Shown: positions 2,089 to 15,149 of the stretch, piece by piece
How positions within the stretch are numbered: position 1 is the stretch's first letter
How the letters are laid out: each line of letters starts with the position of its first letter
Source: a virus
Direction: 5' to 3' (one strand)
Length of the DNA: 26,646 nt
IMG/VR virus record: IMGVR_UViG_3300027736_000217
Location: 1-26,646 of that record
The notes under the pieces: model-generated
Told to the model about the DNA's origin: nothing
What the model saw: only the letters and a program-made list of their open reading frames with translations
Databases searched by the model: none
Translations under genes and position numbers: made by a program

Positions 2089-4363
2089 TGCGCAAGAGCC
2101 AGACCCGCTGATTGCGAGTTTGACAGGCATCATTGCGCAATATGACCGTGAGTTCGATAAATGGAAAAAACGAAGCAAAAAAATCATTGAACGCTATCGT
2201 GATGACAACCGAAGCGCGAACAATGGAGGGGCATCAGTAAGATTTAATATCCTCTGGTCAAATGTTCAGACGCTTGTGCCGGCGACGTTTGCTCGATTGC
2301 CTGAGCCTGATGTATCTAGGCTTTTTCTAGATAATGACCCTGTTGGTCGTGTTGCTGCGCTGATACTTGAGCGCGCATTGAAATATGAGATTGGTCATTA
2401 TCCAGACTACGCAGCGAGTATGCGGCAATGCGTGTTTGATCGGTTTCTCGGTGGGCGTGGAACTTCGTGGGTACGTTATGAGCCACATTTCAAGGCGGCT
2501 CAGTCGGGTTTGCCAACTGATGGCGTTGAGATCAGCGAGGACATTGATGAGCCAGGAGAGGAACTGGATTACGAGTGTTCTCCTGTTGATTATGTTCATT
2601 GGGAAGATTTTGGGCATTCGGTAGCGCGTACTTGGGAAGAAGTTACGCACGTTTGGCGTGTTGTGTATCTGAATGAGGACGCTGTTGAGGAACGCTTTGG
2701 CGAAGAAATGGCTAAAGAGATTCCTTATGATTCATCGCCTGAGAAAAAAGAACGGGCTGTATCAGGAGAGAAAAATCCTAAGCAGGCAAAGATTTACGAG
2801 ATTTGGGACAAGGACAAAAAACGCGCCTATTGGTATTCAAAGTCATTAACCAAGATTATTGACCAGCGCGATGACCCGCTTGGTCTATCTGAGTTTTGGC
2901 CGTGTCCGAAACCGCTATTTGCAACAATCACTAATGAGACATTGGTTCCAGTTCCTGACTACACGTTATATCAGGATCAGGCGCGTGACTTGGATGTGCT
3001 GTCTGACCGTATTGATGGACTGATTAAGGCAATGCAGGTCAAGGGCGTCTATGATGCGTCTGTTCCTGAACTGGCAAGGCTTTTCACTGAGGGCGGTAAT
3101 ACTGATTTGATTCCGGTCAAAAACTATCAGGCATTCTCGGAAAAGAACGGGCTGCGCGGAGCAATCGACATTGTTGATCTATCTCCGTTTGCTGACGCTC
3201 TCAAGCAATGCTATTTGGCATTTTCGCAGGTCAAGGAATACATCTACGAGATTACCGGCATCAGCGACATTGTGCGCGGGCAGACCAATCCAAACGAGAC
3301 TTTGGGCGCACAGCAGATCAAGCAAAACTTCGTCGGCCTGCGATTAAAGGACATGCAGCATGGCGTAGCAAAATTCTGCGCTGAGGCAATCTGCATAAAA
3401 GGTCAGATTATCTGCGCTAAGTATTCCCCAGAAACAATTTTGAGAATTTCGGCTGCAGAGCAACTATCTGAATCAGACAAACCGCTTATTCCGCAAGCAA
3501 TGGCACTGTTGATTGGGCCTGAACGTATGGCCAATCCAGAAGCAAGCCAAGGCCCAAATCCTACGCGAGAATTTAGGATTGATATTGAAAGTGATTCGCT
3601 TGTGGAAATGGACGAGGCGACCAACAAGCAGGATCGTCTTGAATTTCTTAAAGCAACTGGCGCATTTATCAAAGAAGCGTTTCCCGTCATTCAAGCATCT
3701 CCTGCCGCTGCACCATTGCTTGTTGCAATGTTGAAATTTGGCGTGACCGCATTCAAGGTTGGGCGCACGATTGAGGGGGATTTTGATCTTGCGCTGGATC
3801 AGTTGAAACAGCAGGCCGCGCAGCCACAACAACCCAAACCTGATCCTGAGATGGAGCGCGTTAAGGCTGATACGCAGATACAACAAGCGCGAGTCCAGGC
3901 TGATCAGCAAACCAATCAAATGAAGATGCAGGCTGCGCAGCAGGAAACGCAAGTGAAAATGCAGGCTGACGCGCAGATGGAGCAGATGCGTATGCAAGCT
4001 GAATCTGAGCGGCACATGCGCGAGCTACAGGCTAACGCTGCTGAGAGTCAGCGAACTGCGGCTATGCAGCAAGACACTGAACTGAAAAAGGCTGCGTTGC
4101 AGATTGCGGGGCAGATCGAAGTTGCTCGCATTACTTCTGCCGCGCAAGAGCGGGCTGCTGCTCGTAATGCTGAAGTGGAAAGCGAGAATGAGGCAAAAGA
4201 ATCTGCTGAATCGGAAGCCAAAGAACAGGCAGGCGCACAAACGCAAGAAGTTATGAATCGCTTGCTTGAAACGCAAGCCGAGTTGCTAAAAACGATGTCA
4301 CTGCCCAAGCAAGTCATGCGCGATGGCGAAGGCCGCATCATTGGCATGCAGGTAGTCAAGTAA
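2063..4363 (+). CDS. Portal protein, 766 aa
   Basis: The dodecameric portal forms the DNA channel at one capsid vertex and the docking site for terminase and tail. The N-terminal region shows the pattern I associate with podovirus portals: a helix rich in charged residues (QYDREFDKWKKRSKKIIERY), then RFNILWSNVQTLVPA, then NDPVGRVAALILERAL, then FLGGRGTSWVRYEPH. A conserved ITGISDIVRGQTNPNETLGAQQIK motif lies near the middle. The last ~170 residues are a Gln/Met-rich helical repeat (MQAAQQETQVKMQADAQMEQ), a likely coiled-coil crown or barrel. The length fits P22-like and similar large portals. The start overlaps the previous gene by 26 nt, and the stop overlaps the next start as TAATG. Confidence 0.9.
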   Translation: MSLQTNQSNAQEPDPLIASLTGIIAQYDREFDKWKKRSKKIIERYRDDNRSANNGGASVRFNILWSNVQTLVPATFARLPEPDVSRLFLDNDPVGRVAALILERALKYEIGHYPDYAASMRQCVFDRFLGGRGTSWVRYEPHFKAAQSGLPTDGVEISEDIDEPGEELDYECSPVDYVHWEDFGHSVARTWEEVTHVWRVVYLNEDAVEERFGEEMAKEIPYDSSPEKKERAVSGEKNPKQAKIYEIWDKDKKRAYWYSKSLTKIIDQRDDPLGLSEFWPCPKPLFATITNETLVPVPDYTLYQDQARDLDVLSDRIDGLIKAMQVKGVYDASVPELARLFTEGGNTDLIPVKNYQAFSEKNGLRGAIDIVDLSPFADALKQCYLAFSQVKEYIYEITGISDIVRGQTNPNETLGAQQIKQNFVGLRLKDMQHGVAKFCAEAICIKGQIICAKYSPETILRISAAEQLSESDKPLIPQAMALLIGPERMANPEASQGPNPTREFRIDIESDSLVEMDEATNKQDRLEFLKATGAFIKEAFPVIQASPAAAPLLVAMLKFGVTAFKVGRTIEGDFDLALDQLKQQAAQPQQPKPDPEMERVKADTQIQQARVQADQQTNQMKMQAAQQETQVKMQADAQMEQMRMQAESERHMRELQANAAESQRTAAMQQDTELKKAALQIAGQIEVARITSAAQERAAARNAEVESENEAKESAESEAKEQAGAQTQEVMNRLLETQAELLKTMSLPKQVMRDGEGRIIGMQVVK

Positions 4364-9353: not shown

Positions 9354-9371
9354 TTTTTCAAGGAGCCAATT

Positions 9372-9410
9372 ATGGCATTTGCAAACAGTGCTGTGACGGA
9401 CATCATCGCT
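9372..9410 (+). CDS. Major capsid protein, exon 1 (13 codons)
   Basis: AAGGAG precedes the ATG by 6 bases. This exon encodes MAFANSAVTDIIA and is followed at once by an in-frame TAA that belongs to the intron. Family knowledge of N4-gp56-type capsid proteins says that a DIIA motif continues directly into TTIQSR, and TTIQSR is exactly what exon 2 encodes at 10231. The last base is the U required before a group I 5' splice site, and bases 9404-9410 pair with the internal guide at 10005-10011. Without splicing only this 13-residue peptide is made. Confidence 0.85.
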
Positions 9411-9425
9411 TAACAAAAAATGATG

Positions 9426-9983
9426 CTACAAGTCACTTTCGGTAATCCTATTTTTCTTCTTCCGGTTTTCGGTAGGGGTGAGGTATTGCAAGTTCCAAGG
9501 AACATGCAAGCCAGTAACGGGGCGACCGTCAATGATTCCGCGAAGCGGGATGATGTGATCGACTTCCATTCCTTTAGGGCATTTAGCATAAATTTCCAAA
9601 AGTTCTTTTTTGGATGTTCCTTTTGGAGTTTTGTCTTTTACGTCTTTTCGTCGATAGTACAGTCTGGCAGGAAAGTATGGATCAGTTTTCCATCTAATTC
9701 TGCGCGCCTCATTGATTGCGTCTTTATGTTTTTCATAAACTGCTTTCTTTTGCTGCGCGATTTTCTTTCTGTACTTTGCATCAGAGGCATAGCGATTACT
9801 TCTCCAGTCATTTTGATATTCAGAATACTTGCCAAAATATTTATGGGCTCGTTTATGAATATCAGCAAGAGAACAAGGCTTGCATTTATGGCTGACTGTT
9901 GCGCCTTTTTTGTAGTAATCGGAACGCGGCTTATCAATGCCACATTGAGGGCAGACTTTGCTCAAAAATGGTTGTCTAGGCAT
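9426..9983 (-). CDS. HNH homing endonuclease inside the intron, 185 aa
   Basis: The chosen start is the ATG at 9983, just ahead of a zinc-ribbon pattern (C11, C14, C34, C37). A longer frame to 10064 would run through the catalytic intron RNA and is rejected. A basic helical middle (residues about 40-115) is followed by an HNH motif at 141-177: VDHIIPLRG (D142, H143), then [10 protein letters not shown] (N164) and ENRKKKN. Such enzymes cut intronless alleles and spread the intron. The gene reads opposite to the capsid gene, so it is expressed from its own promoter rather than with late mRNA. No Shine-Dalgarno site precedes the ATG. Confidence 0.85.
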
Positions 9984-9989
9984 AGTGAC

Positions 9990-9998
9990 ATTATAGCA
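9990..9998 (-). promoter_or_regulatory. Extended -10 promoter of the intron HNH gene
   Basis: On the minus strand this reads TGCTATAAT, a perfect TATAAT hexamer with the TGn extension that can replace a -35 box. A -35 match is weak (TGTTTT at 17-base spacing). The expected start of transcription, 6-8 bases downstream, falls on or next to the ATG at 9983, so the mRNA would be leaderless. This agrees with the absence of a ribosome binding site. The site abuts the P10 and P1 guide strand of the intron. Confidence 0.6.
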
Positions 9999-10230
9999 CG
10001 TTGGGGCGATGTAAAACAGGGTGAATTCGGTGGACGCTGAAATGCCAATACCGAGCCGATCCATACAGGAATGTATGGCGGGTGTAACGACTAGGTCATG
10101 GAGTCCAGAACGGACAGTAAAGACCCACGAGCCCCCTGCACGTTTTTATAAACGTGATGAGATAGTCTGCTCTGCATCAAAACGAAAGATGCAGAAGTGT
10201 CGGATAAAGAGCCGGCGCGATAACAACTGG

Positions 10231-11220
10231 ACAACGATTCAAAGTCGTACGCGAGCCCTCGCAGATAATTTCACAAACAATAACGCACTCGTTCAGCGCC
10301 TGAACGAACGCGGGAACGTCAAGCCGTTTAGCGGCGGAAACGTGATATTGCAGGAACTGGCGTACAACGACTCAAATACCGCAAACGTCAACTCGTACAG
10401 CGGTTTTGAGTTAATCAACATTCAGCAAAACTCCCCAATCAGCGCAGCGCAATTCTCGATTGCACAATACGCGGCTGCTGTGACGATGAGCGGACTTGAA
10501 ATGTTGCAAAACTCAGGCGAGGAAGCATTCATCGACTTGATGGAAGGCCGACTCGAAGTTACTGAGGGTCAACTGCTTAACCGGATTGGTTCCGATATTT
10601 ACGGCACTGGCTCTGGAAACGGCGGTAAGAATCTGACTGGATTGGGTACTGCTGTGCCTGATACTGCAACCACTGGAACGTATGGCGGGATTTCTCGTTC
10701 TTCGTTCTCGTTCTGGCAGTCAAAGTCATATTCCGGTGTGACTAATGGTGGCGCTGCTGTTTCGGCTGCAAACATCGTTGCTTATATGACCGCGTTAGCC
10801 GTTCAGTTGGTGCGCGGTTCAGACAAGACCGATTTGATTGTGGCTGATAACACCTACTATCAGTATTACATCAACGCACTTCAAGCAATTCAGCGTGTGT
10901 CCAGCGATGGAACCGGAAAAGCGGGAAGTGGCTTTGCTGCCGTGAAGTTCTACGCGGGCGGTATGGCGGCTGATGTGGTGCTTGACGGTGGTGTGTACAC
11001 CGGCGGCGATAGCGTGGGAAGTTGGACAGGTGCAACGAGCAGCCATATGTGGTTTCTCGACACTAAGTACTGCTTCTTGCGTCCACACAAAGACAGAAAT
11101 TTTGTCCCGATCGGCGGCGAACGGCAAGCCGTTAACCAAGACGCGGTTGTGAAACTCATTGGATGGGCTGGTAACTTCACCATGTCCAATAGTTTCCTCC
11201 AAGGCGTTTTGATAGCGTAA
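10231..11220 (+). CDS. Major capsid protein (N4-gp56 family), exon 2
   Basis: This encodes residues 14-342 of the major head protein, beginning TTIQSRTRALADN and continuing NNALVQRLNERGNVKPFSGG, then VILQELAYNDSNTANVNSYSG and AVTMSGLEMLQNSGEEAFIDL. These are hallmarks of the N4-gp56-type HK97-fold capsid family. The frame stays open upstream to an ATG at 10021, but that extension ([14 protein letters not shown]...) is intron core RNA and not protein. The composition is GC-rich compared with the intron (38 G+C of 60 at 10921-10980). The gene follows the scaffold, as is usual for this family. Confidence 0.92.
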   Translation, partial: TTIQSRTRALADNFTNNNALVQRLNERGNVKPFSGGNVILQELAYNDSNTANVNSYSGFELINIQQNSPISAAQFSIAQYAAAVTMSGLEMLQNSGEEAFIDLMEGRLEVTEGQLLNRIGSDIYGTGSGNGGKNLTGLGTAVPDTATTGTYGGISRSSFSFWQSKSYSGVTNGGAAVSAANIVAYMTALAVQLVRGSDKTDLIVADNTYYQYYINALQAIQRVSSDGTGKAGSGFAAVKFYAGGMAADVVLDGGVYTGGDSVGSWTGATSSHMWFLDTKYCFLRPHKDRNFVPIGGERQAVNQDAVVKLIGWAGNFTMSNSFLQGVLIA

Positions 11221-11856: not shown

Positions 11857-13050
11857 ATGTTTCAAAAACGGTTTTCTTGTGCATTTTGCGGGAATCATAC
11901 AATAGAGATTCTTGACTATGGAACCGTTGCATTAGCTGGTGGATTTTTAAAGCCAGAACAATTTGCAACTGAAGAAAAATATCCGCTTTCTTTACATTTT
12001 TGTGAGCGGTGTTATGCGGTTCAAATTCCGCAACATATTCCCCCTGAAAAAATGTTTTCAAACTATTTTTATTTTACTTCGGCAACTAATACAATGCGCA
12101 AGCATTTTGTTTCTTATGCCAATGAAATAGTTAGATTGTTTAATCCAAAATCTGTTGTTGAAATTGGCTGTAATGATGGTGGTTTGTTATCGTCATTGGC
12201 AGATCATGGGGTAAAAGTAACTGGTATTGATCCTGCGTCAAATGTAGTGAAATCAATTACTGATAAACGAATTAAAGTTATTAACAGTTTTTTGAACGAA
12301 ACAATATCAAAAGAAATTGGCAAAGTTGATGTTGTCATTGCAAACAACGTATTTGCGCATATTTCAAAAATACATGAAGCAACTTTGTGCATTTCAAACA
12401 TGCTTACCGATAATGGCGTATTTATATTAGAAGTTAATAAGTTGCATAGCATGATTACTGACCTGCAATATGATTGGGTCTATCACGAACATTTGTATTA
12501 TTACTCAACCATTGCTTTGCAAAGGCATTTGCGAAATCACGGACTTGAGATTTTTGATATGCAGAATTTGCAAACACATGGAGGGTCTGCAAGATATTAT
12601 GTATGCAAATCAAAAAAACGACCAATAACGAAATCCGTTACTACGCAAGTTGAACGCGAATTATGGATGGGGTTAGATAAAATTGATCGGTTTATGAAGT
12701 TTTCTGATTCAGTAAAACAACATCGCGTATCTATGCGTGAGTTTATGGGTCAGATAGATAAAAAAAGAGTTGCTGGATATGGGGCTTGTGGACGCACCAA
12801 TACCATGATTCAATATTGCAACTTGGAATTAGATTACATCGTTGATGATGCCAAAGCAAAACAGGGATTTTATACACCGGGATCACACATTCCGATTGTC
12901 GATAGGGGCGTAATGGACAAAGCAAATCCTGATGTTGTAATTGTGTTTGCGTGGAGTTTTATTGATGAAATTTCATCCAAAGTTTCTAATAGCCGATTAG
13001 TTGTTCCATTGCCGTACATTTATGATGTAAAAGAATGGGCGGTAGCATGA
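11857..13050 (+). CDS. Sugar C-methyltransferase-like SAM protein, 397 aa
   Basis: The architecture matches the three-part family of sugar C-methyltransferases (TylC3/NovU/TcaB9 type). An N-terminal zinc-binding part carries C8/C11 and C49/C52. A Rossmann SAM-binding domain has motif I VVEIGCNDGGLL (100-111) and GIDPA acid D125. A conserved YHEHLYYYS (209-217) corresponds to the catalytic His/Glu region. A C-terminal domain has VAGYGACGRTNTM (305-317) and VDDAKAKQGFYTPG. Members methylate nucleotide-linked deoxysugars. The ribosome site is weak (GGGA). G+C is very low (14 of 60 at 12241-12300, 19 of 60 at 12061-12120) against its neighbours, which suggests recent transfer. It overlaps the glycosyltransferase gene by ATGA. 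Confidence 0.85.
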   Translation: MFQKRFSCAFCGNHTIEILDYGTVALAGGFLKPEQFATEEKYPLSLHFCERCYAVQIPQHIPPEKMFSNYFYFTSATNTMRKHFVSYANEIVRLFNPKSVVEIGCNDGGLLSSLADHGVKVTGIDPASNVVKSITDKRIKVINSFLNETISKEIGKVDVVIANNVFAHISKIHEATLCISNMLTDNGVFILEVNKLHSMITDLQYDWVYHEHLYYYSTIALQRHLRNHGLEIFDMQNLQTHGGSARYYVCKSKKRPITKSVTTQVERELWMGLDKIDRFMKFSDSVKQHRVSMREFMGQIDKKRVAGYGACGRTNTMIQYCNLELDYIVDDAKAKQGFYTPGSHIPIVDRGVMDKANPDVVIVFAWSFIDEISSKVSNSRLVVPLPYIYDVKEWAVA

Positions 13051-15149
13051 TTTCTTTAATTTTGCCGTATTGGGACAGACAGGTTGCGGCGGATAAGGCT
13101 TTGCTGCAATTGGCGCAAACTTATCCTGATTTAGATATGGAAGTTATTGTCGTTGATGATGGCAATCTGGTTCCATTCCAAACGCCGGATGTTGCTCTGA
13201 ATATCCGCGTCATTCGGTTACCGAAAAAGACGATACCGAAATGCCCAACTTTGGCATGGAATGTTGGCGTTGAATATGCTATTGGCGACATTGTTGTTTT
13301 AAGTTGCATTGAAATACTTCACACTCAGCCAGTTATTGAGAAATTAGTAGAATCGGTGCGCAACATTGGGCCGTTAGGTTATGTTTTAGCTGCTGCGTGG
13401 AATCCAGAAACAGATACATGGCAATGCCATAGCGCAGTAAAAACACCTCGCAATCCAACCGGAACTGGATTGTCTTTTTGTGGAGCAATGCACAAATCGC
13501 TTTATTTAAAAGCGGGTGGATTTGACGATGAGTACCGCAATAATGGTGGCGCAGGATACGAGGACAATGATTTTATCAATCGAATGCTAATTGCTGGTGC
13601 AAGATTTGTAATCCGCGATGATTTAATAGTGATTCATCCAAAATCAGACGCTACAATTAGTTGGGGGCCTGGTCGATTTACTATTAACGAAAAGTTGTAT
13701 TACAAAAAATGGCCTAATGAACTGCGTTTGAACTCCATAACTTTCTGCTGTGTCAATGCGGGCGATTACCTTGGACGCGGGCGGGAGTACGTTGAAAAGC
13801 TCTATGCAATGCTGTTGTGTTGCCTTCCTGATGGGCTGGCATTCAAGTTTGTCTGCTTTACTGATGATCCGTTTGAAAAGGAAGGGATTGAGTGCCGACC
13901 TTTGATTGATGGCATTGAAGGTTGGAATCAGAAGATTGCGCTATTTAAGCCAGGTGTATTTGAGGATGGCGAAAGAATCATCTATCTTGACTTGGATACC
14001 CTGCTAATTGGCAGGATTGACAAGATTTTGGATTATCAGGGCGAATTTGCTGTGTTGCGGGATTTCTGGAGGCCGGAAGGATTTGGGCCGGCAGTCATGT
14101 TGTGGCGGGCAGGTTTTGGTGATTGGATATGGAATGACTATGCCAGAGCAGGAATGCCAGAACTTGATAGAGGAGATCAGGAATGGCTTGAAACGGTATT
14201 TTCTGCTCATGGGTACACGCCCAATATCCTGCAAGATATGTATCCGGGATTCTTTTGCTCGTTCAAAGGAGACTGCAAGCCGCATCCCCCACAAGGAACC
14301 CGCGTAGTCTGCTTTCATGGCTTACCTAGACCGCACGACTGCGGTGACTGGATGGCGGAAGTTTGGAATGGCCGCGTAACCGGATCGGCTGTTGAACTGC
14401 TGTGCAACGTGGAAATGGCGAAAATAGCTGAAAACATCAAATCGGCGTGTTTGCGGGATATTCCAATGCTGGATCAGTTGCCGGCCAATAATGGTGACGT
14501 AATGCTTGTGGGTGGCGGGCCGTCTATGAAAGACGAATTAGACTTTATCCGCGCTAAATGGAAAACCGGGACGCCAATTATTGCCATGAACGGAACGGCT
14601 GACTTTCTTGCTGATAACGGCATTATTCCTGATATGCAAATTGCCATTGATGCGCGAAAAGAAAACCTACGATTTTTGAAGCGTAGAAGTGCAAAACAAT
14701 ACTTTTTTGCATCCCAATGCCATCCGGCGCTATTTGACTATATTGGCAACCCTACGTTGTTCCATATCGCTTTGGTTGATTGGGAAAAATACGTTCCACA
14801 AGATACTAGGGCAATGGTGCTTGGCGGTGGGCATTCCGTAGGCATGTTTGCCATGAGCCTAGCCTATGTACTTGGATTTCGGAAGATGCACCTTTACGGG
14901 TATGATTCAAGCTATGCCAATGACAGCCATCATGCTTATGAGCAAAAGTCTAATGATGATGACGCTATTGTTGAGGCGCACGTTCAAGGTAGAACATTTA
15001 AAACTACTGCTTGGATGGTTACTCAAGTGAATGAGTTTCAGGAATTATCCGGGCAATTGTCCCAAATGGGATGCATGATTACGACACACGGCCAAGGGCT
15101 GCTGCCGTATGTGGCTTGGCAACGAGCCGCATTAGCCAAAGCAGCCTAA
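13047..15149 (+). CDS. Three-domain glycosyltransferase / DUF115-like fusion, 700 aa
   Basis: The start is the ATG at 13047 overlapping the upstream stop (ATGA); an ATG 12 bases earlier is less likely. Residues ~1-225 resemble a family 2 glycosyltransferase: ISLILPYWDR, VIVVDDGN (35-40), CGAMHKSLYLKAGGFD and GGAGYEDNDF (167-175). Residues ~230-445 resemble a GT8-like GT-A domain: ITFCCVNAGD, FVCFTDDP and the metal-binding DxD in YLDLDTLL (D315, D317). Residues ~483-700 resemble the DUF115/MptE-like fold: VMLVGGGPSM (485-494), IAMNG, AIDAR, HLYGYDSSY (615-623). DUF115 domains occur in flagellin (Maf) glycosylation. The protein probably builds or transfers sugar chains, coupled with the methyltransferase. 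The target is unknown. Confidence 0.8.
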   Translation: MISLILPYWDRQVAADKALLQLAQTYPDLDMEVIVVDDGNLVPFQTPDVALNIRVIRLPKKTIPKCPTLAWNVGVEYAIGDIVVLSCIEILHTQPVIEKLVESVRNIGPLGYVLAAAWNPETDTWQCHSAVKTPRNPTGTGLSFCGAMHKSLYLKAGGFDDEYRNNGGAGYEDNDFINRMLIAGARFVIRDDLIVIHPKSDATISWGPGRFTINEKLYYKKWPNELRLNSITFCCVNAGDYLGRGREYVEKLYAMLLCCLPDGLAFKFVCFTDDPFEKEGIECRPLIDGIEGWNQKIALFKPGVFEDGERIIYLDLDTLLIGRIDKILDYQGEFAVLRDFWRPEGFGPAVMLWRAGFGDWIWNDYARAGMPELDRGDQEWLETVFSAHGYTPNILQDMYPGFFCSFKGDCKPHPPQGTRVVCFHGLPRPHDCGDWMAEVWNGRVTGSAVELLCNVEMAKIAENIKSACLRDIPMLDQLPANNGDVMLVGGGPSMKDELDFIRAKWKTGTPIIAMNGTADFLADNGIIPDMQIAIDARKENLRFLKRRSAKQYFFASQCHPALFDYIGNPTLFHIALVDWEKYVPQDTRAMVLGGGHSVGMFAMSLAYVLGFRKMHLYGYDSSYANDSHHAYEQKSNDDDAIVEAHVQGRTFKTTAWMVTQVNEFQELSGQLSQMGCMITTHGQGLLPYVAWQRAALAKAA

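Follow-up and report, generated by a model that had tools for sequence, protein, structure and literature searches.

How does a phage make its major head protein when the gene for that protein is broken after only thirteen codons by a stretch of sequence that itself carries a gene on the opposite strand? The question is raised by a single uncultured virus contig of 26.6 kb, record IMGVR_UViG_3300027736_000217, with 26,646 nt (hereafter the window). A Shine-Dalgarno sequence, AAGGAG (9360-9365, plus strand), recognizable from its sequence, precedes exon 1 of the capsid gene, MAFANSAVTDIIA (9372-9410, plus strand). The remaining 329 residues, beginning TTIQSR, are encoded by exon 2 (10231-11220, plus strand), which matches the Mx8-type major head protein family phrog_9953 (PHROG, E=3.9e-86) and has relatives among the capsids of Mx8, Bradyrhizobium and Stenotrophomonas phages. 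The insert between them (9411-10230, plus strand, 820 nt) splits the gene after codon 13, and the first bases after exon 1 are an in-frame TAA. It had been proposed from the sequence alone that the exons join as DIIA-TTIQSR, and alignment to intronless capsid homologues bears this out: the closest relatives, L002, L003 and L004, share 98-99% identity with the window, are missing precisely those 820 nt and read DIIA|TTIQSR unbroken, and most of the approximately 80 homologous capsid loci read DIIA|T[TN]IQ without a break. A pattern scan for the splice junction returned the known loci together with four unrelated stretches in which a gene ends in DIIA.

The insert has the anatomy of a group I intron. 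The last seven bases of exon 1, CATCGCT (9404-9410, plus strand), pair as P1 with an internal guide sequence, GGCGATG (10005-10011, plus strand), the U of the U.G pair being 9410, and the last base of the insert is the terminal G (omega-G) present at the 3' splice site of group I introns. This 7-bp P1 is exactly as the sequence-only reading had drawn it, and P1 with U.G at the splice site is conserved in 13 of 13 introns compared. There is no P2, since P3 (10017-10023, pairing with 10132-10138) follows the guide almost directly. The core continues, on the plus strand, with P4 (10027-10032 with 10049-10054), the P6 hairpin region (10055-10085), P7 (GACTA at 10089-10093 with TAGTC at 10163-10167), a P7.1/P7.2 region between P7 and the 3' strand of P3 (10094-10126), a short P8 hairpin without an ORF (10139-10156), the P9 hairpin (10172-10194) and a second 3' hairpin with the conserved loop ATAAAGAG (10197-10218). 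The two hairpins between P7 and P3' suggest subgroup IA.

The claimed P3-P9 core is backed both by covariance models and by covariation among relatives. The Rfam group I model RF00028 covers 9953-10194 with 33.5 bits (E=1.4e-6), a score below the gathering score of 50, at which Rfam gives no match in the insert, and the core was also found with model R1. We then counted over 11 aligned homologous cores and 50 named pairs, including the P3/P7 pseudoknot. In these 11 introns 95.4% of cells are paired, against 29-42% when the partners are slid, and both partners have changed in 32 of the 50 pairs (shuffles, 17.3 +/- 2.3); sliding the partners by 1-3 bases leaves only 4-9 such pairs. Compensatory changes affect five of the six pairs of P4, and in one relative, L094, P7 has changed on both strands, to GATCA/TGATC, while the exon has become CTC and the guide carries the complementary GAG. 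The insert is thus confirmed by sequence comparison as a group I intron, with an Rfam match below the gathering score, and is predicted to be spliced from the capsid message. Of the structural features proposed from the sequence, P10 (9999-10003, plus strand, with 10232-10236 in exon 2) is the only one that stands less well as a general feature when homologues are compared: the window has 5 bp, L085 has 6 and two others have 4, with at most 3 in 7 of the 11 introns tested.

We present evidence that this intron has moved recently. Near the junction the window differs from L002-L004 at positions -7, -4, -1, +3, 6, 18, 21, 24, 30, 36, 42 and 51, and all 12 differences are silent and lie at third codon positions; nine fall in the first 51 nt of exon 2 (10231-10281, plus strand) and three in 9404-9410, and the next upstream difference is found only at -424. 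The excess of differences in these 58 nt has a probability of approximately 3e-7 when compared with the rest of exon 2, and a second pairing of genes, L069 against L070 and L073, likewise has an elevated number of differences over the first 50 nt of exon 2. As we read it, this cluster is the co-conversion footprint of a recent homing event. Among the sequences compared none proved to be the donor of this tract; L083 matches 8 of the 12 sites, which is not decisive. The distribution of the intron is patchy in keeping with mobility: fifteen contigs including the window carry it at this site (site 1), and in the capsid tree the intron-bearing genes are scattered among intronless ones, with the window beside L002, L085 beside L070, and L082 and L093 among intronless genes and genes interrupted elsewhere (site 2, below).

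Co-conversion may be more than a by-product of this movement. Exon 1 ends in GCT in all intron-bearing genes, whereas the base at -1 is T in 8 of 75 intronless genes and the other 67, in a sample with many near-copies, have GCG, GCA or GCC. Because the guide demands U at -1, the pairing rules imply that most recipients could not splice an intron that arrived without its flank, and we infer that co-conversion is needed to make the recipient's exon end spliceable.

Inside the P1 loop lies a gene for a predicted HNH homing endonuclease of 185 aa (9426-9983, minus strand), which is the only conserved ORF in the insert. Its position and antisense orientation, noted in the sequence-only reading, are the same in all fifteen contigs. 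A sense ORF across the same region (9420-10040, 206 aa, P0003) was considered as a real gene and rejected, as it contains stops in most homologues and is not conserved. Differences between the HNH gene and its relatives are concentrated at third positions of its own frame; by this measure the frame is intact and under purifying selection. The catalytic residues of the DH-N-N type are present (H143, N164 and N173) and are invariant in 13 relatives, as are CxxC pairs. The best PHROG match carries the name 'endonuclease VII' (E=1.3e-13). We do not adopt that name as a family assignment: the DHHRN/endonuclease VII family has a DHDH motif without a central N (PMC6083498), and here the motif reads VDHIIPL and the central N164 is conserved. 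A Pfam HNH match was marginal (best E=0.09, in 2 members), the protein gave no significant Pfam or fold match (best fold Hpy99I, probability 0.87, E=1.2), a sequence search of solved structures gave nothing meaningful, and a search of genome contigs gave only distant HNH relatives.

Could the HNH gene be simply a free-standing gene that landed by chance in a long-established intron and has no role in its mobility? Relatives of this kind do exist. In L092 (57% identical) and L088 (63%) an intact HNH gene lies antisense and immediately upstream of an uninterrupted capsid gene, and neither contig shows an intron core or remnant with Rfam or model R1. We nevertheless consider chance entry improbable, since every one of the site-1 introns found carries the gene in the same loop and orientation, its frame is under purifying selection, and the co-conversion in the flanks is centred on the insertion site. 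The enzyme is predicted to cleave the empty site. The free-standing relatives bear on how introns gain endonucleases, for which both invasion of introns by homing endonuclease genes and collaborative homing are recognized routes (reviewed in PMC3984707); the capsid locus may be a natural example of intron mobility arising by such routes. In L088 and L092 the free-standing gene adjoins the presumed target, the capsid gene, as expected in collaborative homing, and the endonuclease F-CphI of the psbA system likewise adjoins the gene with the targeted site (PMC6083498). F-CphI differs in that it lies beside an intron-bearing gene, whereas the copies in L088 and L092 lie beside intronless genes and the related gene is intronic elsewhere. 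The HNH tree, star-shaped and with long outgroups, gives no order between free-standing and intronic copies. We note that on the reverse complement of L092, at approximately 2975-3015 and to the left of the free-standing HNH gene, a Shine-Dalgarno-like AAAAGGAGC is followed by a sequence resembling the intron 5' end; this stretch is perhaps the trace of a lost first exon.

How is the antisense gene expressed? Six nucleotides before its ATG is a predicted -10 box, TATAAT (9990-9995, minus strand), extended as TGCTATAAT. Of 14 HNH genes, 13 have a -10-like box 6-9 nt ahead of the start, 11 of these boxes being exactly TATAAT; L342 has its box farther from the start. Among the site-1 introns with an aligned HNH start the box is TATAAT in 10 of 11 and TATGAT in one, usually as TGCTATAAT, and the free-standing genes have TATAAT (L092) or GATAAT (L088), again 6 nt before the ATG. 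TATAAT occurs seven times on the two strands of the whole window, and few distant HNH relatives (7 of 134) have it so placed before the start. With so short a distance to the ATG the HNH message is probably leaderless, an antisense transcript from a promoter of host type. No terminator for it was found downstream of the HNH gene. A more speculative reading, which we consider less likely than not, is that the HNH gene and its leaderless -10 promoter form a movable module, found free-standing in L088 and L092 or lodged in the P1 loop. Its antisense orientation would then go back to the free-standing state, and co-conversion would give the recipient a spliceable exon end. If this is true, the two states of the HNH gene form a natural series for the capture of a homing endonuclease by an intron.

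The promoter region may have a second role. The P1 loop is 594 nt long, which should slow P1 formation, and 15 nt at the HNH -10 box (9984-9998, plus strand, overlapping the box and the 6-nt gap to the ATG) can form pairs with the start of the intron (TGCTA..GTCACT, 9424-9437, plus strand, overlapping the last HNH codons and stop), extending P1 and looping the gene out. Of 13 introns, 12 pair more strongly here than the shuffle mean, with z between -1.1 and -5.0; there is no column-wise covariation in it, and the register shifts between introns. On these energies, a P1 extension might compensate for the long loop. We also note that GACATTATAGCA (9987-9998), before the HNH start, resembles the end of exon 1, GACATCATCGCT (9399-9410), at 9 of 12 positions. 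The likeness could mark a site of self-repression, or be due to chance; operators of T4 endonucleases resemble their own homing sites.

Might the intron instead be dead or unneeded, with exon 2 translated alone from a start inside the insert? The window's exon-2 frame is open back to a GTG at 10021, giving 399 aa, and at least 70 codons of it upstream of exon 2 are free of stops in the window, L082, L084, L085 and L093. We consider this very unlikely. Six of 11 homologues have this frame shut within 3-8 codons and without a start, on which ground we reject an internal start for exon 2, and a dead intron would not keep the compensatory changes of its core or a P1 that covaries with the exon, as in L094. 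The two accounts differ in the N-terminus that they predict for the capsid protein, that of the spliced gene being (M)AFANSAVTDIIATTIQSR. An assembly chimera, or a frameshift or pseudogene artefact, of what is a single uncultured virus contig can be practically dismissed, as fourteen other contigs agree with it in 5' boundary, core and HNH position.

We are therefore highly confident in an account in which the insert is a mobile group I intron on whose splicing capsid synthesis depends, with an antisense HNH gene under its own promoter and homing accompanied by the copying of flanks. The end of exon 1 and the guide would pair as P1, the core would then fold, and two transesterifications would join GCU|ACA, restoring the capsid frame. 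The UAA beside the 5' splice site would halt translation of unspliced mRNA, so that capsid synthesis would depend on splicing. The HNH gene would be read on the other strand from its host-type promoter just inside the loop, as a leaderless mRNA. Use of this promoter would presumably set the timing of HNH expression apart from late capsid transcription and keep the ribosomes on its message off the ribozyme. In co-infecting phages the enzyme would cut capsid genes that lack the intron, at or close to codons 13/14, and repair would copy the intron with short exon flanks. These flanks would matter: in most recipients exon 1 ends in GCG, which gives no U.G, whereas the copied flank ends in GCT. An essential, highly expressed structural gene would thus have been made dependent on a selfish ribozyme. 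The near-identical phages with and without the intron make homing, its cost and the need for co-conversion directly testable.

The element is not of a new kind, because mycobacteriophage LittleE (JF937101) has an 819-bp insertion in its capsid gene that is spliced in vivo, as established by RT-PCR and N-terminal sequencing (PMC3706429). Like the window it has a group I intron of approximately 820 bp in the major capsid gene, an endonuclease on the bottom strand, and intronless relatives (PMC3706429). The two differ in that the LittleE ORF (1065-1598 in L167) lies 3' of the core match (859-1062) and not in the P1 loop, in that its endonuclease matches other PHROGs and is called LAGLIDADG-related, and in that the capsid and host group are unrelated. 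Homing endonuclease genes in P1, and antisense ones, are known from nuclear rDNA introns (PMC3679873); in Didymium S956-2 and L2066 the gene is antisense or in P1 and has its own transcription (PMC9548176, PMC3679873). These are eukaryotic rDNA introns with His-Cys endonucleases, and the antisense example is in P9. The arrangement had been called unusual for a phage. That view is to be softened, given the precedents just described for each of its elements; for the combination of antisense orientation and P1 loop, a limited search of the open-access literature found no report in a phage intron. The layout of the window is an unusual variant of a known element, common to 15 virus contigs. The T4-type introns of td, nrdB and nrdD, with I-TevI, II and III, share mobile endonucleases, co-conversion of flanks and the separation of endonuclease expression from splicing (PMC2988022). 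T4 achieves this with regulated promoters and a translation-blocking hairpin, whereas here orientation and an antisense promoter within the loop appear to serve, a different way of producing an endonuclease while leaving splicing undisturbed.

The same capsid family is interrupted by introns after codon 27 (site 2) in L075, L078, L079 and L315. The first three have a related core (78-84 bits with model R1), the same 3' hairpin and a possible U.G at the splice site. In L075 and L078 the P1 loop is approximately 7-9 nt and a sense GIY-YIG-like ORF lies in P8, unlike the window. Set against these relatives, the site-1 intron is distinguished by extra sequence inserted exactly at the P1 loop. More distant Mx8-type capsid genes have introns near codons 56, 72, 105 and 136. 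Introns have repeatedly targeted the Mx8-type capsid gene (L075, L078, L079, L315, L252, L272, L284, L323, L294, L295 and L316), and two introns are apparent in each of L315, L295, L316, L284 and L323.

Elsewhere in the window, 11857-15149 holds methyltransferase-like and glycosyltransferase genes (phrog_1962, E=5.6e-30) inside the structural module and is partly low in GC (33-43%); L005 and L006 have at the equivalent place a shorter stretch with no DNA match to it. Many intron cores were also seen in L291, L290, L263, L299, L302 and L330. Lastly, on the minus strand of a 279-kb contig (IMGVR_UViG_3300044846_005229; L277:24-5347) we find 13 intron-core matches in 5.3 kb of one gene, probably representing about 11 introns. 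An ORF in it (907-1494) matches major head proteins (phrog_1005, E=1.6e-24), and two of the introns carry same-strand homing endonucleases.
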